Shown here piece by piece: positions 1 through 24,589 of a DNA stretch of 64,000 nucleotides (positions are counted from its first letter, which is position 1; every line of letters begins with the position of its first letter). The translations under genes were made by a program, and so were the position numbers. Origin of the DNA: Gelidibacter salicanalis (GTDB lineage Bacteria > Bacteroidota > Bacteroidia > Flavobacteriales > Flavobacteriaceae); assembly GCF_016469035.1 (NCBI RefSeq), contig NZ_JAEHJZ010000005.1:46543-110542 (forward strand), read 5' to 3'. The notes under the pieces are model-generated. The model was not told the DNA's origin. It worked only from the letters and a program-made list of their open reading frames with translations, and ran no database searches.

Positions 1-281
1 TCAATACCTGTAACGGATTCCGTTACGCCATGGGTGCTGCTATTTTGGACGAACAGCAACCCGATAAAGTTAAATATAGAACACAACCCTATTTACTAGG
101 TCCAGCCGAACTTTATGAAACCACGGGCGATGTACCTAATGTGGTGTTCCCTTGCGCCGCCTTGCACGATACCAAAGAAGATAAATTGGCCGTATATTAC
201 GGTGCCGCAGATACCGTGGTGGCTTTGGCATTCGGAAAGTTGAGTGAAGTGATACAGTTTACAAAAGATAACAGTTTATAA
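1..281 (+). CDS. GH130 beta-mannoside phosphorylase, C-terminal fragment
   Basis: This is the 3' end of a gene that starts before the window; the frame is open from base 3 and ends at TAA 279-281. The visible residues carry the conserved GH130 C-terminal region: [13 protein letters not shown], then [13 protein letters not shown], then [14 protein letters not shown]130 enzymes phosphorolyse beta-1,4- or beta-1,2-mannosides. In Bacteroides N-glycan loci a GH130 splits Man-beta-1,4-GlcNAc into Man-1-phosphate and GlcNAc, the last intracellular step. Its place at the head of a GH92/GH18/PNGase F-like cassette fits that role. The subfamily and exact substrate cannot be read from this fragment. Confidence 0.88.
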
Positions 282-292
282 AAACAATTTTG

Positions 293-1363
293 ATGGATTT
301 GAGATTTCGATATGCGTTAGTATGCTTTTGGTGTATGTCTCTGACAGCGTTTGCCCAAACAACTAACAGTAAAATTCCTAAAAGCTATATTGCCTATCAC
401 ACGGCTGATTCTATAAAGGTTGATGGAAAGGATGCTGATGCCTCTTGGAATAAAGTGGAATGGACCGATCTGTTTATTGATATTGAAGGGGTCAAAAAAC
501 CGACTTACAATACCCAGGCAAAAATGTTATGGGATAGTACTTATTTCTACATTTTAGCCAAAATGGAAGAGCCACATGTGTGGGCAGATATTACAGAACA
601 CGACGCGATTATTTTTCATAATAACGATTTTGAAGTGTTTATCGACCCCACTGGCGATACCCATAATTATTATGAAATTGAGATCAACGCCATCAACACC
701 GTTTGGGATTTATTTGTGTCAAAACCCTATCGCGAAGATAATGTGGTGTTAAACGATTGGATGGCTACGGGAATGAAATCCGCCATAACCATTGACGGCA
801 CTTTAAATAATCCGAAGGATACTGATAAAGGATGGATGCTCGAAATTGCCATTCCGTGGTCTGTTTTCAAGAAAGCCTATTTTGAAGAAAATGTACCTAA
901 AGACGACTTTTGGCGCGTGAATTTTTCTAGAGTCAATTGGGATTACCAACTCAATGACGGTGCTTACGGACGCAAGAAAGATGCGGAAGGCAATTACCTC
1001 CCAGAATACAATTGGGTGTGGTCGCCACAAGGTGTCATTAACATGCACGAACCTGAACATTGGGGCTATGTTTATTTTTCTTCAAAGGAAGCTGGAGTAA
1101 AAGATACGTTTGAAATTCCAAATGACGAAAAAATCAAATGGGCATTGTATGAATTGTATCGCGCGCAAAAGACTCATTTTGAAGCTCATGCTGCTTGGAT
1201 AACGTCTATTGAAAAACTATCTTCATCCCCTATCATTGTTGACGGGAAAACGATAACACCAAAACTAGAAAATCATGGTTTTGGATGGACGATTTCAGTT
1301 ATGAGTCCGTTTTCAAATAAATTGTTGATTTTAAAAGAGGATGGTAAATTTATAATAAAATAA
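293..1363 (+). CDS. Exported carbohydrate-binding family 9-like protein
   Basis: A 356-residue protein starting at ATG 293; the TTG at 290 is an upstream alternative I reject. It has a Sec signal (about residues 1-22, ending FAQ). A CBM9/DOMON-like beta-sandwich follows at about 35-250, with the typical opening IKVDGKDADASWNKVEWT and a core of LWDSTYFYILAKMEEPHVWA, NDFEVFIDPTGD and YYEIEINA. A helical, Trp-rich tail follows (KWALYELYRAQKTHF). No glycosidase catalytic motif is visible. It lies 11 bases after the GH130 gene and is probably co-transcribed. Such stand-alone CBM9-like proteins are common in Bacteroidota PULs but their role is poorly defined; a periplasmic or surface sugar-binding role is inference. 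Confidence 0.75.
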   Translation: MDLRFRYALVCFWCMSLTAFAQTTNSKIPKSYIAYHTADSIKVDGKDADASWNKVEWTDLFIDIEGVKKPTYNTQAKMLWDSTYFYILAKMEEPHVWADITEHDAIIFHNNDFEVFIDPTGDTHNYYEIEINAINTVWDLFVSKPYREDNVVLNDWMATGMKSAITIDGTLNNPKDTDKGWMLEIAIPWSVFKKAYFEENVPKDDFWRVNFSRVNWDYQLNDGAYGRKKDAEGNYLPEYNWVWSPQGVINMHEPEHWGYVYFSSKEAGVKDTFEIPNDEKIKWALYELYRAQKTHFEAHAAWITSIEKLSSSPIIVDGKTITPKLENHGFGWTISVMSPFSNKLLILKEDGKFIIK

Positions 1364-1392
1364 AAATAGAATAATAAAAGATTTAGCGGTTA

Positions 1393-1427
1393 GAGACCTC
1401 ACAGGTTTATAAAACCTGTGAGGTCTC
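1393..1427. repeat. Perfect 16-bp palindromic hairpin, copy 1
   Basis: GAGACCTCACAGGTTT (1393-1408) is followed by a 3-base loop and its exact reverse complement (1412-1427). There is no T-tract, so it is not a classical terminator. A diverged copy with the same core lies at 57425-57457. It resembles the dispersed palindromic intergenic repeats seen in many Bacteroidota genomes. It sits between the CBM9-like gene and the first GH29 gene. Confidence 0.7.
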
Positions 1428-1511
1428 GGCCACCCTCAAAGACACAAGAAGTTTATTTCTTAAAATTAATTTTGCCATGCGCAGGACAAACTAAATTTAA
1501 AAATAACCAAC

Positions 1512-3125
1512 ATGGAGTTCAATAAACACATTTTAATTTTATTCCTAATCGGATTTTTGAGCTTCCCTGCTCTTTCACAGGACAAAGAATTGTCATGGGA
1601 AGAACTCAGTGCAACTTATGAATTCCCTGCGTGGTATACAGAAGCCCGATTTGGAATTTGGGTACATTGGGGTGCGCAAACCGAGCCAATGCAAGGCGGA
1701 GGTTGGTATGCGAGACACATGTATATGGAAGACGTGAAACATGAAAAATGGGGGAGAAACGCTTATGCCTATCACAATAAAACCTATGGCCATCCAACTG
1801 AAATTGGATATAAAGATGTGCTCAATGAATGGAAAGCTGATAAGCTAGACACGGATGCGCTTGTTTCATATTTCAAAAGTGTTGGCGCAAAGTATTTTGT
1901 TGCCTTAGCCAATCATCACGATCATTTTGATAATTTTAATTCCACCTATCATCCTTGGAATTCCGTTAATTTGGGACCAAAACGAGATATCATTGGGCAG
2001 TTTGAGAAGTCATCTAAAAAACATAACATGAGGTTTGGGGTGAGTTCTCATGATGACCGCTTTTTGGGTTGGTGGGAACCTGCTTTTGGAGCTGACACTT
2101 CAGGACCTTATAAGGGCATTCCTTATGATGGACATATGACTATTGAAGATGGAAAAGGCAAATGGTGGGAAGGTTTGGATCCTGCCGACTTATACGGTTT
2201 GCCACCAGCAAAACGGACTCCTGAGTATATTGAATCCGTAAAGGAAAACTGGAAGTTACGCCACACCGAACTCGTTACAAAATATGATTTAGATTACCTG
2301 TGGTTTGATGGGTATAATTTTCCTTATGGCGATTATGGAAAGACGGTGAGCACCACTTATTTCAACAAAAAACGTCAGAGCAATGGAAAAATTGATGCGG
2401 TTTTAGCGGGTAAATTTAGCAGTGAACCCACAACCGTTAAAGATATTGAACGTGGTGGGGCTTCTGAAATACTAGCTTTTCCGTGGCAAGGGATAACAAC
2501 CCTCCGTACTTGGTTTTATAAAGAAGATGAAGGCGGGTTGGATTATCGCCATAGCGCAAGAACCGTTATCGAAACCTTGGCCGATTACAATAGTAAAAAT
2601 GGTAATCTCGTGCTGAATGTTGAATTGTTACGTGATGGCACCATCCCTACCACCCAAAAACTAATTTTGGATGACGTTGGTGCGTGGATACACCTCAATA
2701 GTGAAGCTATTTACGCCAGCAAACCTTGGAAAATATATGGAGACAATCTGGATTCTTATCTCAAGGTACTAGAAAATAGTAGCATTGGGGAAGCAGATCT
2801 TGAAGCCTTAAAAAAGCAAAAGAGCGAGGAGCATTTCAATGAAAGAACGCTAGCTAGTCCTGCTTATGGGAGTGATGAAGTGCGGTTTACTACAAACGGA
2901 GATGTGCTGTACATGTTTGTGCTGAATCCAGCGGAGGGGGAAATTGAATTACCAACTTTAGGTTTAAAATCAAAACAAAAGCCAGGCAAAATAAGCGCTA
3001 TTGAGATGATTGGTAGTGACCAAAAAATCGAGTATAAACAAGACAATAATAAGCTTGTACTTACAATGCCAGCAAATCGACCTAATACATTAGCAACGGT
3101 TTTTAGAATTAAAGGAGCTCTATAA
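1512..3125 (+). CDS. GH29 alpha-L-fucosidase (1)
   Basis: A 537-residue exported protein (Sec signal about 1-23, ending ALSQ). The GH29 barrel begins with WYTEARFGIWVHWG and includes ANHHDHFDNF. The nucleophile motif YLWFDGYNF places the catalytic Asp at residue 266. An insert around residues 195-245 and a C-terminal beta-sandwich (about 440-537) follow. GH29 enzymes release alpha-linked fucose with retention. This copy is clearly diverged from the two tandem GH29 copies at 12.5-15.2 kb: it has HHDHFD where the others have KHHDGV or RHHDGF. That suggests another linkage, for example core versus antennary fucose. Linkage cannot be assigned by eye. Confidence 0.88.
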   Translation: MEFNKHILILFLIGFLSFPALSQDKELSWEELSATYEFPAWYTEARFGIWVHWGAQTEPMQGGGWYARHMYMEDVKHEKWGRNAYAYHNKTYGHPTEIGYKDVLNEWKADKLDTDALVSYFKSVGAKYFVALANHHDHFDNFNSTYHPWNSVNLGPKRDIIGQFEKSSKKHNMRFGVSSHDDRFLGWWEPAFGADTSGPYKGIPYDGHMTIEDGKGKWWEGLDPADLYGLPPAKRTPEYIESVKENWKLRHTELVTKYDLDYLWFDGYNFPYGDYGKTVSTTYFNKKRQSNGKIDAVLAGKFSSEPTTVKDIERGGASEILAFPWQGITTLRTWFYKEDEGGLDYRHSARTVIETLADYNSKNGNLVLNVELLRDGTIPTTQKLILDDVGAWIHLNSEAIYASKPWKIYGDNLDSYLKVLENSSIGEADLEALKKQKSEEHFNERTLASPAYGSDEVRFTTNGDVLYMFVLNPAEGEIELPTLGLKSKQKPGKISAIEMIGSDQKIEYKQDNNKLVLTMPANRPNTLATVFRIKGAL

Positions 3126-3192
3126 TTGACGCATGACGTCAAAATAATAATTACAACTAAAACCAATGGCATTTTTTTAAAACAAAAAAGAG

Positions 3193-4350
3193 ATGAGATT
3201 TATAAAATTTATGGTCCTATTACCCCTGTTTTTTGCCTGCAACAATGCACCTGAAAAATCGGAATTACCAGTTGAAGCTCAAGAGGTCTCCAAGGAGGAT
3301 GCAGAACCTGTCGATATGAAAATCATCGGTTATGCGGCAGGATATGAAGATTATGATTTCTCAGAAATTGACGCCACAAAACTGACCCATATCAATTTTG
3401 CCTTTGCCAATATTGTAGAAGGTAAAGCGGCTTTTGAACTCGACACTGATGCCGTTAAAATTGCGACGCTTATCGGACTCAAACAACAAAACCCCGACTT
3501 AAAAGTATTGTATTCTGTAGGAGGATGGGTTTGGTCTGATCAATTTTCAACTATGGCTGCATATGAGGAGTCGCGTAAAATATTTGCAGAAAGTTGTGTG
3601 GCGCTCCTTAAAAAACATGAATTTGATGGGGTCGATTTAGATTGGGAATATCCAGGCCAACGCGCCGAAGACAACGTCTTCCGTCCGTCAGATAAAGATA
3701 ATTTCACGTTGCTTTTAAAAGCGATTCGTGAAGCACTCGATGTGCAAGGTGAAAAAGACGACACTCATTATTTATTGACTATTGCTACTGGCGCTGATCA
3801 GGCGTATATAGATAATACCAATTTAGGAGAGGCGCATGAGTACCTTGATTTTATTAATGTGATGGGCTACGATTTTTATCAAGGCTGGATGTATCAAACC
3901 GGGCACCACGCCAATTTATATCCATCAGATAAGGAAAAATATGGCGGGAATAGTGGTGTTGAAGCTATTGAAAGACATATTGTTGCTGGCGTTCCTGTGC
4001 ACAAACTCGTTTTGGGTATTCCATTTTATGGCAGACAATGGGAGAAAGTAGCACCAACAGAGGTTCCTTTGTACTCGTCGGCTAATGAAGGTGGCTATAT
4101 CATTTCCTACTGGCAAATTCTTGAAAAGCTAAAATCCGGAAAGTATAAAAAAATGTACGACGAATCGGCAAAAGCATCCTATCTATGGAATGAAACAGAC
4201 AACATTTTTGTATCTTGGGATACCCCAAAGGAAATTAAGTTGAAAGCGAATTATATCAAAGAAAAGGGCTTAGGTGGCGCGATGTTTTGGGAGTATAGTC
4301 TTGATAAGGATCAGGAATTGTTGAATGCGCTTTTCGAAAATTTAAACTAA
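3193..4350 (+). CDS. GH18 lipoprotein, chitinase or endo-beta-N-acetylglucosaminidase
   Basis: A 385-residue lipoprotein (lipobox ending at Cys16). The GH18 barrel shows the SxGG motif (SVGGWVW) and the catalytic DxxDxDxE motif D145-G-V-D148-L-D150-W-E152, with E152 as acid/base. MGYDFY matches the conserved MxYD motif (the Tyr assists oxazolinium catalysis) and ends in a WEYSLD strand. GH18 enzymes cut GlcNAc-beta-1,4-GlcNAc, either in chitin or in the chitobiose core of N-glycans. The motif FDGVDLDWEYPG is close to ordinary bacterial chitinases, so chito-oligosaccharide cleavage is possible. The GH92, glycosylasparaginase and PNGase F-like neighbours favour endoglycosidase action. The family is sure, the specificity is not. 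Confidence 0.88.
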   Translation: MRFIKFMVLLPLFFACNNAPEKSELPVEAQEVSKEDAEPVDMKIIGYAAGYEDYDFSEIDATKLTHINFAFANIVEGKAAFELDTDAVKIATLIGLKQQNPDLKVLYSVGGWVWSDQFSTMAAYEESRKIFAESCVALLKKHEFDGVDLDWEYPGQRAEDNVFRPSDKDNFTLLLKAIREALDVQGEKDDTHYLLTIATGADQAYIDNTNLGEAHEYLDFINVMGYDFYQGWMYQTGHHANLYPSDKEKYGGNSGVEAIERHIVAGVPVHKLVLGIPFYGRQWEKVAPTEVPLYSSANEGGYIISYWQILEKLKSGKYKKMYDESAKASYLWNETDNIFVSWDTPKEIKLKANYIKEKGLGGAMFWEYSLDKDQELLNALFENLN

Positions 4351-4374
4351 TAAGTTATATTAAATCGCTTTCGG

Positions 4375-5487
4375 ATGAAAACCAACTTTTTATTTTTTAT
4401 ACTGATCGTTTTAGGGTTGGTCAGCTGTAATCAAATGGAACGGAAGCAGGAAACTGCGGATACAAAACCTTCAGAAGAAGCAAGTTTTAATTTTGGCACT
4501 TGGATCACCTCCAACAAAGACAAATCTAGCGAAGATTACGCTGCCGAATTTAAACGCTATAAGGCAGGTGGAATTGACGAGTTGTTAATCAACACGGCTA
4601 CAGATGTTAAAGAATTGGAGCGATTGGTGGCCATTGCAGCAAAGGAAGATCTTAAAGTTCACGCTTGGATGTGGGCGGTCAACCGACCGGGCGACACCAT
4701 TGCTCAGAAACATCCGGAGTGGTATATGGTGAGCAGAGATGGCAAATCGTGCTATGACACCCAGCCTTACGTAAACTATTACCAATGGCTTTGCCCTACT
4801 AGAGAAGCGTCCCGAAACCATATTTTAAGTTTGGTAGAACGTATGGCTAAAGTGGATGGGATTGAAAGTGTACATCTCGATTATATCCGCTTTCCGGATA
4901 TTTTCCTACCGATAGGATTACTGCCTAAATACAACCTTACCCAAGATACTGAAATGGCAGAATACGACTTCTGTTATTGTGAAGCCTGTATCAGTGCCTT
5001 CGAAAAAATCCATCATAAAAACCCACTGGAAAGTAACAATACCGCTATTGACATGGAATGGAAGAACTTCCGTTTGAATGCCATTAGAAACTTGGTTAAT
5101 GACGCTTACGAGATCGTCCATAAACACAACAAGAAATTAACCGCTGCCGTTTTTCCTTATCCGGAAATGGCGGACCATATGGTGCGCCAACGTTGGGATA
5201 AATGGAATATTGATGCCGTTTATCCGATGATATACCACGGCTTTTACAACGAAGAAATCGATTGGATTGGCTACGCTACCAAACAAGGCGTCACCGATTT
5301 GGAATCTAAGAATGTCCTTCTGAACACTGGCGTTTTTGTGCCGCCGTTTACATCTGCGGAGGAACTCAAAGAAGCCATTCATTACGCTAAAGACAACGGC
5401 GCAAAAGGCGTGACATTTTTTGACGGCCCACAACTAACAGATGCGTATTTACAGACTATTAAAGAAATAAAAGGAAGCTTTAACTAA
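4375..5487 (+). CDS. GHL10-like putative glycoside hydrolase lipoprotein
   Basis: A 370-residue lipoprotein (lipobox LVSC, Cys18) with a TIM-barrel-like sequence of the GHL10/DUF187 type. It has GIDELLINTATD, then LKVHAWMWAVNRPGD, then VHLDYIRFPD, then AVYPMIYHGFYNE, and finally GVTFFDGPQ. The HLDYIRFP strand end is typical of this group. It starts 25 bases after the GH18 stop and ends 10 bases before the sugar transporter, so the three probably work as a unit. Members of this group are largely uncharacterised, so the substrate is unknown. A GlcNAc-containing product of GH18 is a reasonable guess from position only. Confidence 0.7.
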   Translation: MKTNFLFFILIVLGLVSCNQMERKQETADTKPSEEASFNFGTWITSNKDKSSEDYAAEFKRYKAGGIDELLINTATDVKELERLVAIAAKEDLKVHAWMWAVNRPGDTIAQKHPEWYMVSRDGKSCYDTQPYVNYYQWLCPTREASRNHILSLVERMAKVDGIESVHLDYIRFPDIFLPIGLLPKYNLTQDTEMAEYDFCYCEACISAFEKIHHKNPLESNNTAIDMEWKNFRLNAIRNLVNDAYEIVHKHNKKLTAAVFPYPEMADHMVRQRWDKWNIDAVYPMIYHGFYNEEIDWIGYATKQGVTDLESKNVLLNTGVFVPPFTSAEELKEAIHYAKDNGAKGVTFFDGPQLTDAYLQTIKEIKGSFN

Positions 5488-5497
5488 CACATAACCT

Positions 5498-6811
5498 ATG
5501 TCAAACCAGAAATCATACCGCTCCGCATTTATTTTATTGACTATCCTATTTTTCCTTTGGGGATTTATAACTGTGTTGGTCGACTCCCTAATTCCGCGAT
5601 TGCGTGAATTGTTTACCTTAACTTATTTTCAGGCAGGACTGGTTCAATTTGCATTTTTTGGAGCTTATTTTTTACTGTCCATTCCGGCAAGTTATATCCT
5701 TTCCAAAATCGGCTATAAAAAAGGAATCATTCTCGGATTATTGACCATGGCTTTGGGTTGTTTACTGTTTTATCCCGCGGCATCCTATCGCATCTTTGGA
5801 ATCTTTATGTTGGCGTATTTCATTTTGGCAGGAGGGATTACCATTTTACAGGTGGCTGCCAATCCGTTTGTAGCAGTTTTGGGTTCTGAAGAAGGCGCGT
5901 CGAGTAGATTAAACCTTTCCCAAGCCTTCAATTCCTTAGGCACCGCTATCGCGCCAGCAATTGGCGCCTTGTTTATTTTAAGCGATGTGATAAAAACCAA
6001 GGAAGAAATTGCAGTATTAGAAGGTTCGGCGAAGGAAGCGTACCTCTCCGCAGAAGCTGCAGCCGTGCAAACACCATTTTTGGGCTTGGCGCTTTTTATA
6101 GGCTTGATCGCGGTTATTTTCTTGTTCGCAAAGTTGCCTACCATGATTTCGGAAACTTCTACGGGAACTTATAGAGAAGCCTTAAAGAATAAAAAATTGA
6201 TGCAGGGCGTATTGGGTATCTTCTTTTATGTAGGTGCTGAAGTAGCCATTGGGAGCTATTTGGTCAACTACTTTTTAGATATGAACCTGGTTTCCGTAAT
6301 CAAAGAATCTAGTGTGATGCGGTCTATAGCAGAAACCATTCTAAATTCAGGTTTGGCAGATAAAGACGATAAAGCCGTCGTGGGTGTGTTTGTCACATTT
6401 TATTGGTCCGGTGCGATGATTGGAAGGTTTGCAGGCGCTTATCTTACCAGAATTATGCAGCCAGGAAAAGTCTTGGCGATTTTCGCAACCATTTCCATCA
6501 GCTTGATTGTACTATCTATTAGTACCGTCGGTTTGGTGAGCATGTGGAGTATTTTGGCGGTTGGTTTGTTCAATTCTATCATGTTCCCAACCATTTTCAC
6601 CTTAGCGATTGACGGCATTGGGCATTTAAAACCTAAAGCTTCAGGCTTGTTGTGTACAGCCATTGTGGGTGGTGCCATAATTCCGCCAACGTTCGGGTTT
6701 TTAACCGATCAGATAGCGTTTAAAAATGCCATGATTTTTATAGTGTTGTGCTATGCGTACATTGTGTGGTTTGGGTATAAAAATGGGAAATCGAAGGTGG
6801 CTATAGTGTAA
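5498..6811 (+). CDS. FucP/NagP-type MFS sugar:H+ symporter
   Basis: A 437-residue inner-membrane transporter with about 12 hydrophobic segments. The N-terminus FLWGFITVLVDSLIPRLRELF and the segment LQVAANPFVAVLG are hallmarks of the FHS family (fucose, glucose/galactose and N-acetylglucosamine symporters). GASSRLNLSQAFNSLGTAIAP matches the conserved loop and helix of the same family. It is the only sugar importer of the inner membrane in the window, so it probably carries a final monosaccharide or small product, such as fucose or GlcNAc, released by the surrounding periplasmic enzymes. The exact sugar cannot be assigned from sequence alone. Confidence 0.9.
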   Translation: MSNQKSYRSAFILLTILFFLWGFITVLVDSLIPRLRELFTLTYFQAGLVQFAFFGAYFLLSIPASYILSKIGYKKGIILGLLTMALGCLLFYPAASYRIFGIFMLAYFILAGGITILQVAANPFVAVLGSEEGASSRLNLSQAFNSLGTAIAPAIGALFILSDVIKTKEEIAVLEGSAKEAYLSAEAAAVQTPFLGLALFIGLIAVIFLFAKLPTMISETSTGTYREALKNKKLMQGVLGIFFYVGAEVAIGSYLVNYFLDMNLVSVIKESSVMRSIAETILNSGLADKDDKAVVGVFVTFYWSGAMIGRFAGAYLTRIMQPGKVLAIFATISISLIVLSISTVGLVSMWSILAVGLFNSIMFPTIFTLAIDGIGHLKPKASGLLCTAIVGGAIIPPTFGFLTDQIAFKNAMIFIVLCYAYIVWFGYKNGKSKVAIV

Positions 6812-6828
6812 GGTACATGGGCTGTAGT

Positions 6829-6887: not shown

Positions 6888-9134
6888 ATGAGAAAAATTG
6901 TGGTAATTGGTCTGATGAGTATGGGGTTTTTGTGGCATTGCAAAGCACCTAAGACTGTAGTACCTCAAAAGAAATTAACCCAATATGTGAATCCGTTTAT
7001 TGGTACGGATGGACCGGGGAATACATATCCTGGCGCCACCGTTCCGTTCGGGATGGTACAGTTGAGTCCCGATATCGGCATCCCAGGTTGGGACCGTATT
7101 GCGGGTTACTTTTATCAAGATTCCATAATTTCTGGATTTTCGCACATGCATTTGTCCGGTACCGGCGCTGGTGATCTTTACGATATTTTGGTAATGCCAA
7201 CCAACAGTCGCTTTTCTGAGCGTATGGAAGCCAACAGCTTTAAACCTTTTTCAAGTTTTTCTCACGACAAAGAAGCCGCCTCTCCAGGCTATTATACCGT
7301 AGACTTGTTAGATTATGGTATTAAAGCGGAATTGACCGCCACCGAACGCACAGGAATTCATAAATATACCTTCCCTAAAGACGACAGTACGCAAATTCAT
7401 ATCGATTTAGGTTACGCTTTAAATTGGGACAGTCCTACCGAAACACATATCAATGTGGTAAATGAAACCACTATTGAGGGCTACAGAAAATCTACAGGTT
7501 GGGCAAAAGACCAGAGGGTTTATTTTGTTATTAAAATTTCAAAGCCATTCAAAAGCTATCAGGTCTTTAAAAATGACTCGCTGACAAGTTCTCCAGTCAC
7601 TCACAAAAACACCAAAATTATTCTGGATTATACAACCTCAGAGGGCGAGGAAATCGTCTTAAAAACAGGGGTGTCTTCCGCAAGTATTGAAGGCGCTTAT
7701 AAATCTTTGGAAATTGAAGCGGCACATTTTGATTTTGAAGCACTAAAACATCAAGCAGAAAATAAATGGGAAACCCAACTCAATAAGATCAACATCACCG
7801 TAGCTGATGACACGAAAAAACGAATTTTTTACACCATGTTGTACCAGTCCATGTTGGCGCCAACCTTATTGAGTGATCTTAATGGCAACTACAAAGGCGC
7901 CAATGATACCATCATGAAGGCTGACGGATTTGACCGTTACGATACGTTCTCATTATGGGATACCTATCGCGCAGCACATCCACTTTACACCATCGTACAT
8001 CCTACACACGTGTCAGATATGGTCAATTCCATGCTGGCTCATTACAAGGAAACAGGATTGTTGCCCGTTTGGTCCATGCAGGGCAATGAAACCAATATGA
8101 TGATTGGCTACCACGCTGTTCCGGTGATTGTGGATGCTTATTTTAAAGGCATTAAAAATTTTGATGCTGATTTGGCATACGAAGCCTGCATCGCCAGTGC
8201 CACAGATGCGTCGAGAGAAATTGATAAATACATGGCCTTAGGCTATGTTCCTATTGGTGAAGGCGGCGATGATTGGTCGGTATCCAAAACCTTGGAATAT
8301 GCTTATGACGATTGGTGCATTGCGCAATTCGCTAAAGCGTTAGGAAAAACGGAAGATTATAATACCTTTCTAAAACGTTCCGATAACTGGCGTAATGTTT
8401 ACGATACCCAAAGCACCTTTATGCGTCCAAAATTGGAAGATGGTACTTTTATAGCCGATTTTGACCCTAAAGCGTATTCCGCACATTTTTGCGAAAGCAA
8501 TGCTTGGCAGTACTTCTGGTCCGTGCAACACAATATTGAAGGTCTAGCCGAACGGGTTGGTGGCAATGAACTATTCGAAAGAAAACTCGATTCCATGTTT
8601 TCGTTAAATCCGCTTCCTGACGATAAATTACCCATTTTCAGTACCGGAATGATTGGCCAATATGCACATGGTAATGAACCGAGTCATCATGTCGCCTATC
8701 TTTATAATTATGTTGGTAAACCATGGAAAACCCAAAAGTTGGTCCGCGAAATTCTAGAAACCCAATATCAAAATGAGCCTAGCGGCCATTGTGGTAATGA
8801 AGATTGCGGCCAAATGTCGTCGTGGTACGTCTTTAGTGCTTTAGGTTTTTATCCGGTCAATCCAGCACAAGGAGTCTATGCTTTTGGATCGCCAAGTGTT
8901 GATTCGGCAACGCTCAACTTAGAAAATGGAAAGACTTTTAAAATCACTGTGCTTAATAACAGTCCAAAGCATATCTACATCCAGTCCGTTACTTTAAATG
9001 GCGAGACTTTAGAAACTAATTTTATCACGCATAAACAAATAATTGAAGGTGGCGCGCTCCAGTTTAATATGGGTAGTGAGCCTAATAAAAACACGAGCAA
9101 TACCATGGCGCCTTCATCACAACTATATAAATAA
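6888..9134 (+). CDS. GH92 exo-alpha-mannosidase (1)
   Basis: A 748-residue protein with a lipoprotein-like signal (Cys18, but a weak box LWHC). It opens with the GH92 signature YVNPFIGTDGPGNTYPGATVPFGM and HMHLSGTG. The predicted general acid lies in CESNAWQYFW (Glu536). The Ca/general-base loop is GNEDCGQMSSWYVFSALGFYPV. GH92 enzymes are Ca-dependent inverting alpha-mannosidases that trim alpha-1,2/1,3/1,4/1,6-mannose from N-glycans. This is the most canonical of the three GH92 copies here. Its start follows a purine repeat tract directly. The linkage cleaved is not deducible from these motifs. Confidence 0.93.
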   Translation: MRKIVVIGLMSMGFLWHCKAPKTVVPQKKLTQYVNPFIGTDGPGNTYPGATVPFGMVQLSPDIGIPGWDRIAGYFYQDSIISGFSHMHLSGTGAGDLYDILVMPTNSRFSERMEANSFKPFSSFSHDKEAASPGYYTVDLLDYGIKAELTATERTGIHKYTFPKDDSTQIHIDLGYALNWDSPTETHINVVNETTIEGYRKSTGWAKDQRVYFVIKISKPFKSYQVFKNDSLTSSPVTHKNTKIILDYTTSEGEEIVLKTGVSSASIEGAYKSLEIEAAHFDFEALKHQAENKWETQLNKINITVADDTKKRIFYTMLYQSMLAPTLLSDLNGNYKGANDTIMKADGFDRYDTFSLWDTYRAAHPLYTIVHPTHVSDMVNSMLAHYKETGLLPVWSMQGNETNMMIGYHAVPVIVDAYFKGIKNFDADLAYEACIASATDASREIDKYMALGYVPIGEGGDDWSVSKTLEYAYDDWCIAQFAKALGKTEDYNTFLKRSDNWRNVYDTQSTFMRPKLEDGTFIADFDPKAYSAHFCESNAWQYFWSVQHNIEGLAERVGGNELFERKLDSMFSLNPLPDDKLPIFSTGMIGQYAHGNEPSHHVAYLYNYVGKPWKTQKLVREILETQYQNEPSGHCGNEDCGQMSSWYVFSALGFYPVNPAQGVYAFGSPSVDSATLNLENGKTFKITVLNNSPKHIYIQSVTLNGETLETNFITHKQIIEGGALQFNMGSEPNKNTSNTMAPSSQLYK

Positions 9135-9141
9135 ATACTGT

Positions 9142-12524: not shown

Positions 12525-12527
12525 AGT

Positions 12528-13835: not shown

Positions 13836-13889
13836 TGAGTGTTTTTATTAAAAAAAAAGATTTACCAACTATAATCAAATCAGTTAACA

Positions 13890-15239
13890 ATGAGATATTA
13901 TAAAGTTATAGCAGTCCTGTTTTTCTTAGTCGCTAATCACGTGGTAGCACAAGAAAAACTGTCAAAAGAAGAACGATTAGAGTGGTTTCAAGATGCCAAA
14001 TTTGGGGTCTTTATCCACTGGGGCTATTATGGCGTAAAAGGCATTGGCGAATCGTGGTCCATGTATCACAAACGCATTTCTTATGACGATTATATGTCCC
14101 AAGGAAAAGAATTTACCGCCAAAAATTACGATCCGGAAGCTTGGGCAAAACTCTTTAAGAAAATTGGAGCACGTTATGCGGTATTGACTACCAAACATCA
14201 TGATGGTGTCGCGTTATGGGATACCAAATTCAGCCATTTAAACGTTGTAGAAAAAACGCCAGCGAAGCGCGATTTAGTAGGGCCTTATGTAGACGCACTG
14301 CGGGCAGAAGGTTTAAAAGTTGGCTTGTACTACTCGCTAATTGATTGGTCGCATCCGGATTATGATGTTGTTTTTCCGCGTCCTGATACTCGTAAAAACT
14401 ATCCTCAAAAAAATCAAAATCAATTGTCGCCATGGCAACGTTTTTTGAGATTTAATGATGGGCAGTTAAAAGAATTGAGTACCAGATACAATCCGGATTT
14501 ATATTGGTTTGATGGCGATTGGGAAAAATCTAGCGAGCAATGGCGCGCAGAATCCTTGAAAGATTCCTTATTGGCTTGGAACCCAAAAGTGATTGTGAAT
14601 TCCCGTTTGAAAACCCACGGCGATTATAGCACCCCAGAACAAGGTGTGCCAGTAGTAAGGCCAGAAGGTGCATGGGAGTTTTGTATGACCATGAACGATA
14701 ATTGGGGCTATTTCCCATCCGACACGAATTACAAACCGGTATCTCAAATCATCAGAACTTTTGTTGAGGTGATTGCTACCGGAGGAAATTTATTATTGAA
14801 TATCGGGCCTAAACCTGACGGGACTATTGCAGAAGAGCAGTTAGAACGTTTGGAAGCTTTAGGGGAATGGGTTAATAAACATGAATCGGCTGTTTTTAGT
14901 GCTAAAGCAGGTTTGCCTTACGGACATTTTTACGGCCCTACCTTGTTGAGCAAAGACGACACAAAAATCTATTTGGCATTATTTGACAATCCTAAAAACT
15001 ACATCTCTTTAAAAGGAATTCAGAATAAAGTGAAATCCATCAAAGTTGTGGGGAGTGGACAAGAATTGAGTTTCGAAAGAAATGGTGGTGCAGAATGGAA
15101 TAATATTCCTGGAATCTTAAGAATTGAAATCCCTCAAGAGAAGAATTTAGATGCGAATGTAACCCTGATTGAAGTGGAGTTGGAAGATGCGTTGGTGTTG
15201 TATAGAGGGCATGGGAATGCGGTGGAGTTGAATAAATAG
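13890..15239 (+). CDS. GH29 alpha-L-fucosidase (3)
   Basis: A 449-residue exported protein (signal about 1-21, ending VAQ). Motifs are WFQDAKFGVFIHWGYYG, TTKHHDGVALWDTK, YYSLIDWSHPDYD and the nucleophile YWFDGDWE (Asp208), closing with LLLNIGPKPDG. It is a relative of GH29 (2) but diverged through most of the chain, so it is not a recent duplicate. Three different GH29 enzymes in one cassette imply a substrate with fucose in several linkages. No C-terminal carbohydrate-binding module is visible. Confidence 0.92.
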   Translation: MRYYKVIAVLFFLVANHVVAQEKLSKEERLEWFQDAKFGVFIHWGYYGVKGIGESWSMYHKRISYDDYMSQGKEFTAKNYDPEAWAKLFKKIGARYAVLTTKHHDGVALWDTKFSHLNVVEKTPAKRDLVGPYVDALRAEGLKVGLYYSLIDWSHPDYDVVFPRPDTRKNYPQKNQNQLSPWQRFLRFNDGQLKELSTRYNPDLYWFDGDWEKSSEQWRAESLKDSLLAWNPKVIVNSRLKTHGDYSTPEQGVPVVRPEGAWEFCMTMNDNWGYFPSDTNYKPVSQIIRTFVEVIATGGNLLLNIGPKPDGTIAEEQLERLEALGEWVNKHESAVFSAKAGLPYGHFYGPTLLSKDDTKIYLALFDNPKNYISLKGIQNKVKSIKVVGSGQELSFERNGGAEWNNIPGILRIEIPQEKNLDANVTLIEVELEDALVLYRGHGNAVELNK

Positions 15240-15371
15240 AATTAAGACCGCTGCGCTGTTAGAATTAAGAACAAAGATGGAAGACTTAGGACTTAAGACT
15301 TAAGACGTAGGACGGATTAAACCTAACACAAAACATTTTGTGATTCGTCTTACGTCCTGCAGTCCTAAGTC
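15238..15371. repeat. Composite palindromic intergenic element
   Basis: The stretch starts with AGAATTAAGACCGCTGCGCT (15238-15257), a sequence shared with 59685-59704, followed by a second AGAATTAAGA. It then forms nested arms. GACTTAGGAC (15283-15292) pairs with GTCCTAAGTC (15362-15371). GACGTAGGACG (15304-15314) pairs with CGTCTTACGTC (15346-15356) with one mismatch. A central CACAAAA-CAT-TTTTGTG hairpin sits inside. There is no coding potential and no T-run. It looks like a dispersed structured repeat between the GH29 and GH92 genes. Confidence 0.65.
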
Positions 15372-15416
15372 AATAAAAGGGCTTCAAACAAATAAGCATA
15401 TTAAATAAATAATAAA

Positions 15417-17750
15417 ATGCCAATACTTATTTTAAAACGGTCGTGGGTTGTTTTACTTGCCATTGTATGTGCAGGAACAACTGGCATAGGTCAGAATAAT
15501 AGCTACATCGACAGTCACGATTTGGTGGATTTTGTCAATCCTTTAATGGGCACGGATTCATCTTTCGATTTGTCCAACGGGAATACCTATCCCGCCATTG
15601 CCACGCCTTGGGGGATGAATTTTTGGACCCCAATGACTTCAAAAATGGGCGATGGCTGGACTTATAAATACCGTGAAAACAAAATTAGAGGCATCAAACA
15701 AACCCACCAACCGAGTCCGTGGGTGAATGATTATGCAGCGTTTTCCTTTATGGCCGTAACCGGCGATTTAAAATTTCAAGAAGATGAGCGCGAATCTTGG
15801 TTTTCGCATAAAGCAGAAACGGTAACGCCGTATCATTATTCGGTGTATTTGGCCGATTATGATGTGGTGGCTGAGGTAACACCAACAGAACGAGCGGCGC
15901 AATTTAGATTTACCTTTCCAGAATCGGACAGTTCCTATATCATCCTCGATGCGTTTAACAAAGGATCCATGGTGAAAATCATTCCTGAAGAACGCAAAAT
16001 TATTGGCTACGCTAGAAACAATAGCGGTGGGGTGCCCGAGAATTTTCACAACTATTTTGTGGCTGAATTTGATAAAGATTTTGAGCTCAACCACACTTGG
16101 AAAGATGGTTGGCAATTGGTTGAAAACACTACTGATAGCGAAGGTGACCATGTGGGCGCCATTATCGGATTTAAAACAAAAAAAGGAGAAGTGGTAAACG
16201 TTAAAGTGGCGTCGTCATTTATAAGTCCTGAGCAAGCAGCACTAAATCTTTCAAGAGAAATTGGCGCAGACACTTTTGACCAAACAAAAGAAAAAGCAAA
16301 ACAAGCTTGGGAAACTGAGTTGGGCAGAATTAAAATTGAAGATGATAACATCGATAATCTCAGAACATTCTATTCCTCTTTATACCGTGTGTTGCTATTC
16401 CCAAGAAAATTTTATGAGTTTGATGCCAATAATGAGATGATGCATTATAGCCCGTATAATGGGAAAGTCTTACCGGGCTATATGTTCACGGACAATGGGT
16501 TTTGGGACACTTTCAGAGCGGTGTTTCCGTTTTTTAATATGATGTATCCTGAGCTTAATGGCAAAATTATGCAAGGCTTGGCTAATACGTATAAAGAATC
16601 GGGTTGGTTGCCAGAATGGGCAAGTCCGGGACATCGGGATGTGATGATTGGCTCCAATTCAGCGCCTATTATTGCTGATGCCTTTTTAAAAGGTGCCAAA
16701 GATATGGATGCCGATATTTTAATGGAAGCCATACTTAAAAATGCCACCGTTGCAGACGGACGTCCTGTAAATTCCGTGGGCAGAGCCGGATTGGAATATT
16801 ACAACACATTGGGTTACGTGCCGTATGATGTGGATATCAACGAAAATGCAGCCAGAACTTTAGAATACGCTTACGCCGATTTTACCATCGCTCAAATGGC
16901 GGAGAAAATGGGAAAACCAAAGCTTGCCAAAAAGTATTTTAAGCAATCCATGAATTACAAAAACCTTTTCGATCCATCCACCAATTGGATGCGTGGGAAA
17001 AACAAGGATGGCAGTTTTCAAAGTCCGTTTAATCCTTTAAAATGGGGCGATGCGTTTACCGAAGGCAATAGTTTGCACTACACGTGGTCCGTTTTTCATG
17101 ATATTCAAGGCTTGATTGATTTGATGGGCGGCAAGGAACCATTTGTGGGCAAGTTGGATGAAGTTTTTGACATGCCACCAAAATTTGACGCGTCCTACTA
17201 CGGATTTACGATTCACGAAATTCGAGAAATGCAAATCGTCAACATGGGCAACTATGCGCACGGCAATCAACCCATTCAGCACATGATCTATTTGTATAAT
17301 TATGCCAATCAACCCTACAAAGCTCAAGAGAAGGTTAGGAACGTGATGACGAAATTGTATTCAGCAACACCTGACGGCTATTGTGGTGATGAAGACAACG
17401 GTCAAACGTCGGCTTGGTATGTGTTCAGCGCATTAGGCTTTTATCCGGTAACCCCGGGCGTGGACGAATATGTAATTGGAAGTCCGCTGTTCAAAAAAGC
17501 AACCCTCCATTTAGAAAACGGGAACACCTTTATAATCAAATCCAACAACAATTCAGAATCGAATGTCTACATTCAAAATGCGGAATTGAATGGAAACACC
17601 TATAACAACACCTATCTGAAATTTGATGTCCTCCAAAACGGCGGTGTCTTAGGATTTAATATGGGCAACACTCCAAATACAAGTTGGGGCATTGCAAATG
17701 AAAATGTTCCGTACTCCTTAAGTACGTCAAAAAATAAACCTAAAAAATGA
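15417..17750 (+). CDS. GH92 alpha-mannosidase (2)
   Basis: A 777-residue exported protein with a Sec signal (about 1-25, ending IGQ). GH92 features are FVNPLMGTDSS, GNTYPAIATPWGMNFWTP, a predicted general acid in TEGNSLHYTW (Glu549), and the Ca/base loop GDEDNGQTSAWYVFSALGFYPVTPG. It lacks the HLSGTG motif of GH92 (1), having THQPSPWVNDYA at that place, so it belongs to a different branch with a different subsite. Its last codons overlap the next GH92 gene by ATGA (17747-17750), indicating coupled translation and a paired function. Confidence 0.92.
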   Translation: MPILILKRSWVVLLAIVCAGTTGIGQNNSYIDSHDLVDFVNPLMGTDSSFDLSNGNTYPAIATPWGMNFWTPMTSKMGDGWTYKYRENKIRGIKQTHQPSPWVNDYAAFSFMAVTGDLKFQEDERESWFSHKAETVTPYHYSVYLADYDVVAEVTPTERAAQFRFTFPESDSSYIILDAFNKGSMVKIIPEERKIIGYARNNSGGVPENFHNYFVAEFDKDFELNHTWKDGWQLVENTTDSEGDHVGAIIGFKTKKGEVVNVKVASSFISPEQAALNLSREIGADTFDQTKEKAKQAWETELGRIKIEDDNIDNLRTFYSSLYRVLLFPRKFYEFDANNEMMHYSPYNGKVLPGYMFTDNGFWDTFRAVFPFFNMMYPELNGKIMQGLANTYKESGWLPEWASPGHRDVMIGSNSAPIIADAFLKGAKDMDADILMEAILKNATVADGRPVNSVGRAGLEYYNTLGYVPYDVDINENAARTLEYAYADFTIAQMAEKMGKPKLAKKYFKQSMNYKNLFDPSTNWMRGKNKDGSFQSPFNPLKWGDAFTEGNSLHYTWSVFHDIQGLIDLMGGKEPFVGKLDEVFDMPPKFDASYYGFTIHEIREMQIVNMGNYAHGNQPIQHMIYLYNYANQPYKAQEKVRNVMTKLYSATPDGYCGDEDNGQTSAWYVFSALGFYPVTPGVDEYVIGSPLFKKATLHLENGNTFIIKSNNNSESNVYIQNAELNGNTYNNTYLKFDVLQNGGVLGFNMGNTPNTSWGIANENVPYSLSTSKNKPKK

Positions 17751-19969
17751 AACAATTTGGCTTATTAATTCTCTTATTTTTTTGTGGTACTTCCAGCCTT
17801 ATGGCACAAGAACCAGCCGATTATGTGAATCCGTTTATTGGTACCTCCAATTACGGCGCCACGTTTCCTGGCCCAATTGCCCCGCGAGGCATGGCGAGTA
17901 TCAGTCCGTTTAACGTAGCGGGACCACAAAACACCTTGGAAAAGGACAGTCAGTGGTTGTCCAATCCGTATGTGAATGAAAACACATTTTTAACCGGTTT
18001 TAGCCACGTCAATTTAAGTGGTGTGGGCTGTCCAGATTTAGGAGTGTTATTGTTAATGCCAACTACGGGCGAATTAGAAACCAATCACCTGAACTACGGT
18101 TCTACCTACAAAAATGAAGTCGCAAAAGCCGGCTATTACAGTACGGAAATCGATAAATATAAGGTGAAAGCTGAGTTCACGGCGTCTACTCGAGTAGGGG
18201 TGAGTAAATTTCATTTTCCAAAAGGACAAGCCAATGTGTTGTTGAATCTTGGTTTAGGGTTGACCAATGAGGAAGGTGCTATGGTGCAAGTCGTCTCATC
18301 AACTGAAATTGAAGGCATGCGTTCCGTTGGATCATTCTGTTACAACAGTCCAGAAGCCGCATATCCGGTTTATTTTGTCGCTCAATTTTCAAAACCAGCT
18401 GATAATTTTGGCGTTTGGAAAAAACCTGCGACATATGAAGGTGTGGAAGCACAATGGATGGGTTATAATGGCAAAACGCGTCTGATGGAGAAATCGACCA
18501 AAATGGTAGTTGGTGATAGTATTGGCAGTTATTTTACTTATAATTTTGATAAGGCCGAAACGGTTGAAGTTAAAATCGGGGTAAGCTACGTGAGTATTGC
18601 CAATGCACGCGAGAATTTAGAAAAGGAAACCAATAACAAAACGTTTGAAGACGTTTATAAAGACACCTACAACGCGTGGAATGAAACACTCTCCAAAATC
18701 AAAGTGGAAGGAGGTTCTGAAGACGATAAAACTGTTTTTTATACCGCTTTGTATCATACGCAAATCCATCCGAATACTTTAAATGACGTCAACGGCGACT
18801 ATCCTGAAATAAAAACAGGAAACATCGGAAATACCGATGGGACGCGCTATACCGTCTTTTCCTTATGGGATACCTATCGGAATGTGCACCAATTGTTATC
18901 GCTCGTTTATCCGCAGCAGCAGAATAATATGATCCATAGTATGTTGGATATGTATGAAGAGAACGGTTGGTTGCCTAAATGGGAATTGAATTCCACCGAA
19001 ACCTTTACCATGGTAGGCGACCCAGCGAGTATTGTTATTGCGGATACGTATTTGAAAGGCATTCGCGATTTTGATGTTGACAAGGCCTATGAAGCGATGT
19101 TAAAAAGTGCCGATCATTTGGAGAATAATCCCCTGCGTCCAGGTTTGAAAGATTATATTGAAAAAGGGTTTGTGACAACGGATCATGGTGGTTCGGTTTC
19201 GACCACTCAAGAATATAATGCGGCGGATAATGCCATCGCTCAACTGGCAAACGCCCTCGGTATAAAAGACGATTACAAACGGTTTAAGAAGCGCTCATTA
19301 TCGTATAAAAAACTGTTCGACAAAAAATTAAAAATGTTACGTCCTAGACTACAAAATGGGGAATGGTACGAGCCCTTTGATCCTTATGCAGGTGCTAATT
19401 TCTCTGAAAACATCGGATTTATTGAAGGTAATGCATGGCAATATTCGTTTATGATGCCGCATGATATTGACGGGCTTATAAAGTTGATGAATGGCGGTAA
19501 GGGCTTTACAGATCAGTTGCAAAAAATATTCGATACGGAGCAATTTGATATGGCTAATGAACCGGGAATTGCCTATCCGTACCTTTTCAATTATGTAAAA
19601 GGCGAAGAGTGGCGCAGTCAGCAAATGGTAGAAGATTTGGTTAGAAAACATTTCAAGAACACGCCTGATGGCATTCCGGGAAATGATGATACCGGCACCA
19701 TGTCTGCTTGGGTAGTCTATTCTATGATGGGCTTTTACCCAATCGCTCCTGGAGAACCTGTTTATACCATTACCAAGCCGCTGTTCGATAAAATCACCAT
19801 TCAATTAGATTCCAAATATTACAAGAATAGTGAGTTGGTTATAGAAAAAGAAACCAATGGCAACGGTCGCATCGATCACATTCTAATCAACGGAAAAAAA
19901 CATAAGGGGTATTTTATTAATCATGACGACTTGGTGAATGGAAATACTATGAAGGTCATTCTAAAATAA
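17747..19969 (+). CDS. GH92 alpha-mannosidase (3)
   Basis: A 740-residue exported protein (signal ending LMAQ). It shows YVNPFIGTSNYGATFPGPIAPRGM, HVNLSGVGCPDLG, the predicted general acid in IEGNAWQYSF (Glu560) and the loop GNDDTGTMSAWVVYSMMGFYPIAPG. Its ATG lies inside the stop overlap with GH92 (2). The three GH92 genes are diverged over their whole length, which argues for complementary linkages (for example alpha-1,2, 1,3 and 1,6 on high-mannose or core glycans) rather than gene dosage. Which enzyme cuts which linkage cannot be read here. Confidence 0.92.
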   Translation: MKQFGLLILLFFCGTSSLMAQEPADYVNPFIGTSNYGATFPGPIAPRGMASISPFNVAGPQNTLEKDSQWLSNPYVNENTFLTGFSHVNLSGVGCPDLGVLLLMPTTGELETNHLNYGSTYKNEVAKAGYYSTEIDKYKVKAEFTASTRVGVSKFHFPKGQANVLLNLGLGLTNEEGAMVQVVSSTEIEGMRSVGSFCYNSPEAAYPVYFVAQFSKPADNFGVWKKPATYEGVEAQWMGYNGKTRLMEKSTKMVVGDSIGSYFTYNFDKAETVEVKIGVSYVSIANARENLEKETNNKTFEDVYKDTYNAWNETLSKIKVEGGSEDDKTVFYTALYHTQIHPNTLNDVNGDYPEIKTGNIGNTDGTRYTVFSLWDTYRNVHQLLSLVYPQQQNNMIHSMLDMYEENGWLPKWELNSTETFTMVGDPASIVIADTYLKGIRDFDVDKAYEAMLKSADHLENNPLRPGLKDYIEKGFVTTDHGGSVSTTQEYNAADNAIAQLANALGIKDDYKRFKKRSLSYKKLFDKKLKMLRPRLQNGEWYEPFDPYAGANFSENIGFIEGNAWQYSFMMPHDIDGLIKLMNGGKGFTDQLQKIFDTEQFDMANEPGIAYPYLFNYVKGEEWRSQQMVEDLVRKHFKNTPDGIPGNDDTGTMSAWVVYSMMGFYPIAPGEPVYTITKPLFDKITIQLDSKYYKNSELVIEKETNGNGRIDHILINGKKHKGYFINHDDLVNGNTMKVILK

Positions 19970-20023
19970 GTAACTCGCTTAAAAACATCTATTCTTATCA
20001 ATTACAGAAAACACACTTTTAAC

Positions 20024-21202
20024 ATGAAATCAAACGTATTAATTTTTACATTTTTAGTATTTGCAATTTTTTCATCAAGCGCTCAAAAGCCCTCTATTTA
20101 CAAGGTTTTTGAGAAGCAACCTCTCAATTTCGGCGGCGAAAAAGGCAGCGATGCTGAGACGGCGCGTTTAATGGACGGCCGTTTGGTCTATAAAAAAGTT
20201 ACGGTACCTACATTTGCTCAAGGCACGGATGTGAACATAAAATTGACGGTACGCTCGAATGGTGATCGCTGGGATAAATCGGGATCTGTCTTCGTGGTTT
20301 CTGATTCTGAAAAACTTTCCATTCTGGATATTGCAGGAAAGGACGAAAAATTCCCAACAGATTCTTATGTAGATGGGAAATACGCGGGATTGGTAAAAGG
20401 AAAAACCTACGAACCAGTAGTGGAACTCATGCGATTTATGACTCCGTTTGGCGTGGGACATTATAGTGATAATAAAGTAAAGTATCGAAGACCAGTTTAT
20501 ATTCCTTCTTGGGAAAAAGAAGTGGTGTGGGAGCATGATATCACGGCCTTAGAAAGCGTGGTGACGGGGACGTTTTATGTAGGTGTTTGGATTGATTCCT
20601 GGACCGCAGAAGGTTATGATTTTGACCTGGAATTGAAGTATTCTGACAGAACACAACAAAAAGTTTCAGTGCTTCCTTTAGTGAATACCATTCCGTACGT
20701 TGGCGGACAGAAAATACCAGATAATTTTGCCCATAAAGATTTGGAGCAAACCATTCAACTAAAGAAGAATGCTAAAAATGTGAAGTTGCATTACATCACT
20801 ACCGGACACGGTGGACATAGTGGAGGTGATGAATTTATCAAAATCAAAAACAGTGTCTATTTTAATAATACATTGGTTTTGGATACCATTCCGTGGCGGG
20901 ATGATTGTGCGTCCTTCCGACGATTCAATCCAACATCAGGTGTTTGGATCAAGAAAGATTCCGCATCATATATAAGTCCAAAAACTAATAAATACGAGGT
21001 CAAAGAAATTGAAGAACGTATTGCCTCTTCTGATTTATCACGATCTAATTGGTGTCCAGGGTCTTCCGTTGAACCAATGGTAGTCAGTTTAGGCGACTTA
21101 AAAGCGGGCGCGCACACGATCAAAATAAAAATTCCTGCCACTCCTGTGGATGGTGACAAGCTGAACCACTGGTTAGTGTCGGCGTATTTGACTTACGAAT
21201 AA
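20024..21202 (+). CDS. PNGase F-family peptide:N-glycosidase
   Basis: A 392-residue exported amidase (signal about 1-20, ending SSAQ), expected to cut between Asn and the first GlcNAc and free whole N-glycans. By eye it follows the two eight-stranded-sandwich domains of Elizabethkingia PNGase F. RWDKSG aligns with the EWDRY region, putting Asp84 at the catalytic Asp60 position. WIDSW aligns with TETW, so Asp191 replaces Glu118. GGDEF aligns with the AEWC region, giving Glu270 at Glu206. NWCPG matches the conserved GWCPG. An N-terminal stretch and a loop around 115-150 are extra. It is the last gene before the 21230 terminator. The family is well supported; activity with the Glu-to-Asp change is untested. 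Confidence 0.87.
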   Translation: MKSNVLIFTFLVFAIFSSSAQKPSIYKVFEKQPLNFGGEKGSDAETARLMDGRLVYKKVTVPTFAQGTDVNIKLTVRSNGDRWDKSGSVFVVSDSEKLSILDIAGKDEKFPTDSYVDGKYAGLVKGKTYEPVVELMRFMTPFGVGHYSDNKVKYRRPVYIPSWEKEVVWEHDITALESVVTGTFYVGVWIDSWTAEGYDFDLELKYSDRTQQKVSVLPLVNTIPYVGGQKIPDNFAHKDLEQTIQLKKNAKNVKLHYITTGHGGHSGGDEFIKIKNSVYFNNTLVLDTIPWRDDCASFRRFNPTSGVWIKKDSASYISPKTNKYEVKEIEERIASSDLSRSNWCPGSSVEPMVVSLGDLKAGAHTIKIKIPATPVDGDKLNHWLVSAYLTYE

Positions 21203-24576: not shown

Positions 24577-24589
24577 TAACATCATAATT

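Follow-up and report, generated by a model that had tools for sequence, protein, structure and literature searches.

The described gene clusters that come closest to the one reported here are known from Bacteroides and from marine Bacteroidetes. In the available part of the report on Bacteroides PNGase loci (PMC9522356), the PNGase gene stands beside genes for GH92, SusC/D, GH29, GH3 and GH130, much as in our cassette; the extended loci hold group 2 PNGases, whereas the PNGase described below lacks the extra N-terminal domain, and no word containing asparaginase occurs in the main text. The high-mannose polysaccharide utilization loci (PULs) of B. thetaiotaomicron (BT3987 or BT1285) likewise use GH92 enzymes on mannose-rich N-glycans, but they rely on GH18 endo-β-N-acetylglucosaminidases (ENGases), and no PNGase, GH130 or asparaginase term was found in the main text as available (PMC11180146). 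Sulfatase-free, GH92-rich PULs of marine Bacteroidetes contain GH92, GH130, GH20, GH18 and sometimes CBM9, a likeness to our cassette that concerns gene families and not sequences; they were assigned to α-mannose-rich substrates, and the terms asparaginase, PNGase, N-glycan, N-linked and DUF4015 are missing from the available main text (PMC6794258). Here we describe a cassette of the flavobacterium Gelidibacter salicanalis, located on the plus strand in the left 21 kb of a 64,000-nucleotide stretch (the window; contig NZ_JAEHJZ010000005.1, positions 46,543 to 110,542), whose GH18 is chitinase-like and which encodes two putative amidases for the bond between Asn and N-acetylglucosamine (GlcNAc). 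We consider it likely that the cassette makes up the catabolic section of an N-glycan utilization locus of flavobacteria, working in the order of steps proposed below.

The idea of N-glycan use by marine bacteria is not new: a 2024 study of particle-attached bacteria connected their GH92 and GH20 with host glycans, N-glycans included (PMC10877868, available in part). In its available part, a 2023 review names a product with two GlcNAc residues without giving an enzyme that cuts the bond between them, and no word containing chitobio or asparaginase occurs there (PMC10154615). Among the papers listed by a literature search that covered few subscription papers, we found no description of PULs bearing a glycosylasparaginase (AGA), nor of AGA, PNGase, PUL and N-glycan in combination.

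Two putative amidases for the Asn-GlcNAc bond

The PNGase F-like protein (20024..21202, plus strand, 392 aa) carries both PF09112 and PF09113 domains, with scores of 189.9 and 183 bits that exceed the cut-offs (E 4e-56 for the N-terminal domain and 3e-54 for the C-terminal one). Its best matches in the PDB are the solved PNGases 3ks7 and 4qhb (E about 1e-115), which we take to be the B. fragilis and B. vulgatus enzymes, of group 1 type. The conserved Asp of the (W/Y)D(K/R)xGS motif, presumably the catalytic residue, is present in alignments to 3ks7, 4qhb and 7zgn, the motif lying at residue 84. The length of the protein, its nearest relatives and the lack of an N-terminal bowl domain would place it in group 1; larger copies occur in relatives as open frames of 562-567 aa with 36% identity.

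The AGA gene (9142..10161, plus strand) was given a TTG start at 9043 by the program that listed the open reading frames. The frame starting there matches Asparaginase_2 (E 1.6e-64), and its best PDB matches are glycosylasparaginases (E 4e-120), whereas the best isoaspartyl peptidase/L-asparaginase reaches only 8e-33. The HDT nucleophile site is present, with the Thr after HD at residue 194 of the frame examined (193 from the ATG), and the start of the protein looks Tat-like by eye.

Judged by these matches, both amidases look real, and the original prediction of two enzymes for the Asn-GlcNAc bond is borne out, one protein being nearest to solved PNGases and the other to solved glycosylasparaginases. 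PNGases are reported to require more than two amino-acid residues while glycosylasparaginases act on one (PMC6960285, available in part). The two enzymes would be two entries to one bond, because the PNGase needs a peptide and the AGA a single Asn, and the most plausible reading is that they deal with long and with fully digested glycopeptides, respectively.

Organization of the cassette

The genes form a closely packed run from the tail of a GH130 gene to the PNGase F-like gene, with intergenic gaps of -4 to 177 bp, followed by susC and susD. A profile search of the window's open reading frames detected all the named families with strong Pfam scores, so that the GH130, GH18, GH92, GH20, three GH29, AGA and PNGase F-like genes announced earlier for one strand are all in place. 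All features given here lie on the plus strand. The run opens with the C-terminal tail of the GH130 protein, of the mannosyl-GlcNAc phosphorylase type (1..281); its 92 residues score far under the whole-protein cut-offs of GH130 phosphorylase models, as expected of a fragment. The full gene encodes 321 aa and starts about 684 bp before the window, and the best PDB match of the full protein is UhgbMP (E 1.1e-147), which we take to act on mannosyl-GlcNAc. Next come a putative CBM9-like protein (290..1363), a divergent GH29 α-L-fucosidase (1512..3125), the chitinase-type GH18 (3193..4350), a putative DUF4015/GHL10-type glycoside-hydrolase-like protein (4375..5487), assigned from Pfam and alignment and part of the cassette core, and an MFS sugar permease (5498..6811) that scores above the cut-off of the gluP model and below those of the fucP and NagP models. 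A GH92 α-mannosidase (6888..9134) precedes the AGA gene, behind which lie a GH20 β-hexosaminidase with a C-terminal F5/8 domain (10194..12524), two further GH29 α-L-fucosidases (12528..13835 and 13890..15239), two further GH92 α-mannosidases (15417..17750 and 17747..19969) and the PNGase F-like gene. The SusC-like TonB-dependent transporter (21442..24576) and the SusD-like protein (24563..26326) supply at 21442-26326 the adjacent susC and susD genes by which a PUL is recognized.

The window's left edge falls inside the cassette, whose true start lies about 4.8 kb before it; the same contig carries, upstream of the window, a fourth GH92, an SSS symporter and the missing portion of GH130. The gene list of the original prediction is confirmed, with some corrections: the three GH92 genes it counted are all in the window and a fourth lies upstream of it, the GH130 gene is represented in the window by its tail only, and the CBM9-like, DUF4015/GHL and MFS permease genes had been passed over.

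Recurrence across genomes

We surveyed 397 genomes of the family taken, from the NCBI placement of Gelidibacter, as Flavobacteriaceae (GTDB, one genome per species) and found a GH130 ortholog in 65 of them, from 44 genera. A gene was called linked when it lay within 30 kb of GH130 (35 kb for PNGase), GH18 being scored at E 1e-70. By this measure DUF4015 is linked in 51 of the 65 genomes, AGA in 39, PNGase in 23 and GH18 in 21; the last figure includes two GH18 proteins of 42-50% identity lying 20-23 kb off (G276, G631), the other 19 being close orthologs. Both AGA and PNGase are linked in 16 of the 65 genomes (12 of 44 genera), a count in which weak PNGase rows were scored present and which argues against rarity of a double-amidase cassette, and GH18 accompanies both in 8. 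The search for PNGase used a protein query (E 1e-10) in 25 of these genomes and PF09112 in 40. Left out of the linkage counts were short PNGase matches in G673 and G498 (E 2e-13 and 1e-12; 36-38% identity), six weak PF09112 matches (E 5e-6 to 2e-4), among them those of G529, G698 and G731 within 35 kb of GH130, and ten DUF4015 matches of 35-40% identity plus a second copy in G276.

DUF4015 and AGA are associated with each other. AGA is linked in 38 of the 51 genomes with DUF4015 against 1 of the 14 without (p 7e-6), and the association holds with the first genome of each genus, at 25/34 against 1/10 (p 5e-4, with no further correction for phylogeny). The cassette also has its own type of AGA, because the best copy is 65-100% identical to that of the window in the 39 genomes where AGA is linked and at most 60% identical in the other 26, two of which have none; the exception is G276, with a second, unlinked copy of 80% identity on another contig. 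Gene order is conserved across genera. Around DUF4015 itself, within 10 kb on either side in the best 80 of 351 relatives (named genomes, some stretches being short), we found CBM9 in 80 loci, SSS in 77, GH130 in 76, the first GH92 gene (GH92a) in 72, GH20 in 67, AGA in 55 and GH18 in 22; stretches of this length miss most PNGase genes (1/80 seen).

Several of the counts weigh against reading these loci as N-glycan systems throughout. None of DUF4015, GH18, AGA and PNGase is linked to GH130 in 10 of the 65 genomes, and a further 8 have DUF4015 but neither amidase, so the presence of GH130 is not enough to identify the locus. Nor is the association between AGA and PNGase significant (Fisher p 0.30 by genome, 0.21 by genus), and 25 of the 80 DUF4015-anchored loci have no AGA in the stretch covered.

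The chitinase-like GH18 protein

The GH18 protein, with a lipoprotein-like start by eye, keeps the DxxDxDxE motif as DGVDLDWE. Among the PDB matches listed (60 of 141) are chitinases, chitinase-like proteins, unspecified GH18 proteins and N-acetylglucosaminidases, with no ENGase by name, a result that does not place it with the EndoF, EndoH or BT3987 type; a close kinship to EndoF was rejected because these relatives are chitinase-type. Chitin utilization loci hold several chitinases together, and here the search, which covered PF00704 and no other chitinase family, returned a single match genome-wide, the cassette GH18. A chitin system is disfavoured, and a role of this protein on chitin unlikely, because it is the only PF00704 protein of the genome.

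The 19 close orthologs occupy one fixed slot. G276 has no GH18 in the slot between CBM9 and DUF4015, and both G276 and G631 instead carry a different GH18 (42-50% identical) beside or near PNGase (L143/L144; L131/L132, L292/L293). Judged by such gene contents, GH18 is an optional member of the cassette. Its association with AGA (p 0.10) or with DUF4015 (linked in 19/21 genomes with GH18 and 32/44 without, p 0.12) is not significant. A simple swap of DUF4015 for GH18 is unsupported overall, GH18 tending to co-occur with DUF4015; among the 14 of 65 genomes without linked DUF4015, four (G138, G688, G109, G620) encode a PF00704 protein at a distance of less than 11 kb from GH130.

The GH18 protein could act on the glycan core as a chitobiase or an endoglycosidase. 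It is even possible, although we think it rather unlikely, that it is the real core-cutting endoglycosidase and the DUF4015 protein an accessory: its catalytic motif is intact, it holds an identical slot in 19 genomes, no other PF00704 match exists in the window's genome or in 8 of those 19, and it is linked more often alongside PNGase (12 of 23 genomes with PNGase against 9 of 42 without, p 0.015). Its listed PDB relatives speak for a chitinase, however, it is unlinked in 44 of the 65 genomes at the same threshold and present in only 22 of the 80 DUF4015-anchored loci, and 16 genomes with linked DUF4015 and AGA lack any PF00704 match (E 0.01), two of them, G542 and G746, being less than 80% complete. 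With no ENGase among the matches listed and many sister cassettes devoid of GH18, the original assignment of this protein as a core-cutting endoglycosidase is unsupported.

The DUF4015/GHL10-type protein and its CBM9-like partner

The constant part of the cassette, overlooked earlier, is the CBM9-like protein, whose gene accompanies DUF4015 in every one of the 80 loci, together with the DUF4015/GHL10-type hydrolase-like protein. The latter, which has a lipoprotein-like start by eye, passes the gathering cut-off of DUF4015 (PF13200) with 41.4 against 27 bits. PF13200 is matched by all 19 aligned members at E 0.1 or better and GHL10 (PF02638) by 13 of the 19 (E 0.1), as well as by 4 of 4 singly scanned relatives, over the cut-off; the window protein itself gave no GHL10 match at E 0.1 and a GHL6 match below the cut-off. 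No significant PDB relatives of it were found, and comparisons by hhalign with GH18, GH29, GH27 and GH20 were unconvincing (best probability 13.7, over 38 columns). In a wider alignment His167, Asp169, Arg172 and Asp175 are invariant and Glu264 almost so, Asp175 and Arg172 standing out in the first alignment too; these residues would fit an active site, without naming the reaction.

Activities are on record for GHL10 proteins, to which DigH presumably belongs. Cwp19 is a lytic transglycosylase on peptidoglycan (PMC6016235) and DigH a denuded-glycan hydrolase (PMC12288456), and one GHL10 protein was reported active on starch (PMC9967864), all from sources available in part. For DUF4015 and GHL6 we found no activity in the literature apart from work on α-fucosidases, in which one clone, there classed as GH29, matches GHL6 (PMC4723247, available in part).

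These records bear on the alternative that the DUF4015 protein is a retaining α-glycosidase, acting for example on the last α-1,6-mannose or on core fucose and leaving chitobiose to GH130 and a GH20, which we regard as doubtful. The sub-threshold GHL6 match, shared by two of the cassette GH29 proteins, the starch-active GHL10 protein and the weak resemblance of Cwp19 to GH27/GH36 remarked upon in the available text of PMC5765458 point that way. So does the alignment to Cwp19, where Asp196, thought to be catalytic in that source, falls on Tyr170 and only Asp169, one position earlier, meets an Asp (Cwp19 Asp195); but this alignment is not significant (E 0.41), and hhalign against one cassette GH29 and against the GH27 gave nothing. 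Moreover, Cwp19 and DigH cut amino-sugar backbones, and in G500 a GH125 α-mannosidase encoded between DUF4015 and AGA may already serve such a linkage.

What recommends the DUF4015 protein as a candidate core enzyme is a set of five genomes from five genera, all 99% complete (G478, G500, G530, G281, G683), in which DUF4015 and AGA are linked and no match to PF00704 (E 0.01) or PF09112 (E 0.001) was found anywhere, GH85 lying outside this search and EndoF-type GH18 proteins being able to escape PF00704. The run of G478 consists of GH92-SSS-GH130-CBM9-DUF4015-AGA only, and the genes after it match nothing of the cassette. For the GlcNAc-GlcNAc cut this leaves no assigned enzyme, the candidates in the run being the DUF4015 and CBM9-like proteins; in genomes of this type enzymes encoded elsewhere, for example a GH20 acting after GH130, could make the cut. 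As a tentative proposal, to which we give well under an even chance, the DUF4015/GHL10-type protein would be a new core enzyme (an endo-β-N-acetylglucosaminidase or chitobiase outside GH18 and GH85) which, with its CBM9-like partner, GH92, the SSS symporter, GH130 and AGA, would form a six-gene minimal N-glycan pathway with PNGase and GH18 as optional add-ons, and some marine α-mannose PULs would then be glycoprotein loci. Such a pathway would resemble lysosomal breakdown rather than the endoglycosidase route of Bacteroides. In the degradation scheme set out in the Discussion, the proposed and unproven action of the DUF4015 protein on the glycan core is the weakest step.

Neighbouring genes and genome

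Directly after susD, at 26689..38950 on the plus strand, two LacZ-type GH2 genes, a GH27, a third GH2 and a sulfatase form a possible antenna-trimming extension, perhaps in a shared regulon; the set would fit the stripping of β- and α-galactose and sulfate off complex antennae, and kin of the two LacZ-type GH2 are also found near the cassette in G751, G138, G576 and G531. A second gene set at 38968-57377, by its look probably a separate PUL, contains a BACON protein, SusC/SusD, an SGSH-type sulfatase, GH16, GH20 and GH2, as well as, on the minus strand, a regulator of the propeller/Y_Y_Y kind that weakly matches LuxR. A RhuM-family gene at 57750-58787 matches only model positions 1-125 of 252 and, with a short open reading frame next to it, is possibly truncated or split. 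The 1289 aa product of a gene at 59937-63806 combines GH31 with fn3, F5/8 and a dockerin-like match, the last of these under the cut-off, and the window's right end is the end of the contig.

On the other side, 5' of the fourth GH92 gene, there is another SusC/SusD pair (L002:7211-12253), as well as a LytTR/histidine-kinase pair in divergent orientation. Also upstream of the cassette (L002:1409-6215) are genes for two proteins, one of 695 aa that combines GDSL-lipase and sialic-acid-esterase domains and one of 903 aa that matches only the first part of the GH20 catalytic domain. The assembly measures 5.16 Mb in 682 contigs, against 3.5-3.8 Mb in three genomes of the same genus, and may include foreign stretches or be mixed.

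Discussion

N-glycan breakdown as the likely target, already part of the original prediction, is supported by the family matches, the two amidases, the mannosyl-GlcNAc-type GH130 and the conserved gene order. From the identities of the genes, their order and its conservation we infer the substrate, the succession of steps, their compartments and their regulation. SusC/SusD would import glycopeptides, and in the periplasm the GH20, GH29 and GH92 set would remove antennae, fucose and α-mannose. The Asn-GlcNAc bond would be opened by PNGase in peptides and by AGA once the peptide has been trimmed to one Asn, and the GlcNAc-GlcNAc core would be cut by the chitinase-like GH18, the DUF4015/GHL10-type protein or both. 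Man-β-1,4-GlcNAc would finally enter the cytoplasm, perhaps via the SSS symporter, and be split by the GH130 phosphorylase. That the locus targets algal α-mannan instead is improbable: marine loci with GH92, GH130, GH20, GH18 and sometimes CBM9 have been read so, and a sulfatase lies downstream, but the cassette has its own AGA type (G276 excepted), and we know of no place in α-mannan use for two Asn-GlcNAc amidases, a GH20 and a mannosyl-GlcNAc-type GH130.

The cassette is a recurring flavobacterial kit with one conserved enzyme-like gene, and the conserved DUF4015/CBM9 pair is a better lead than the novelty of two routes. If the proposals above are true, a recurring type of flavobacterial PUL that resembles α-mannan loci is a glycoprotein-scavenging system, which changes what is inferred from metagenomes about marine carbon and nitrogen turnover. 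They would also bring a new family of enzymes that cut N-glycan cores, of use in glycan analysis, and reveal what happens to the two-GlcNAc core that PNGase or AGA leaves behind.

Set beside known systems, the coexistence of both routes is less unusual than first claimed: AGA and PNGase are both linked to GH130 in the 16 genomes counted above, and Elizabethkingia meningoseptica has PNGase F and a glycosylasparaginase in one organism (PMC6960285), although in Gelidibacter both lie in one gene cluster. In Lactobacillus casei a fucosidase, an MFS permease and a glycosylasparaginase are found together, as here, in a pathway that uses the Fuc-GlcNAc-Asn stub, with no mannosidase or PNGase described for the strain in the available part of the same source (PMC6960285). 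The contrast originally drawn with high-mannose loci of Bacteroides is justified, though only within narrow limits, because PNGase loci with GH92, GH130 and GH29 neighbours have already been published there (PMC9522356, available in part). As to the AGA, none of 43 family-f5 genomes with a strong PNGase match has an AGA match less than 30 kb away, and where both genes share a contig the shortest distance is 338 kb (in two of the 43 the match to the AGA query is just 34-37% identical), whereas 10 of the 16 other genomes of that comparison do. In contrast to the α-mannose reading of similar marine loci, the pairing of AGA and PNGase in the Gelidibacter cassette points to glycoproteins.

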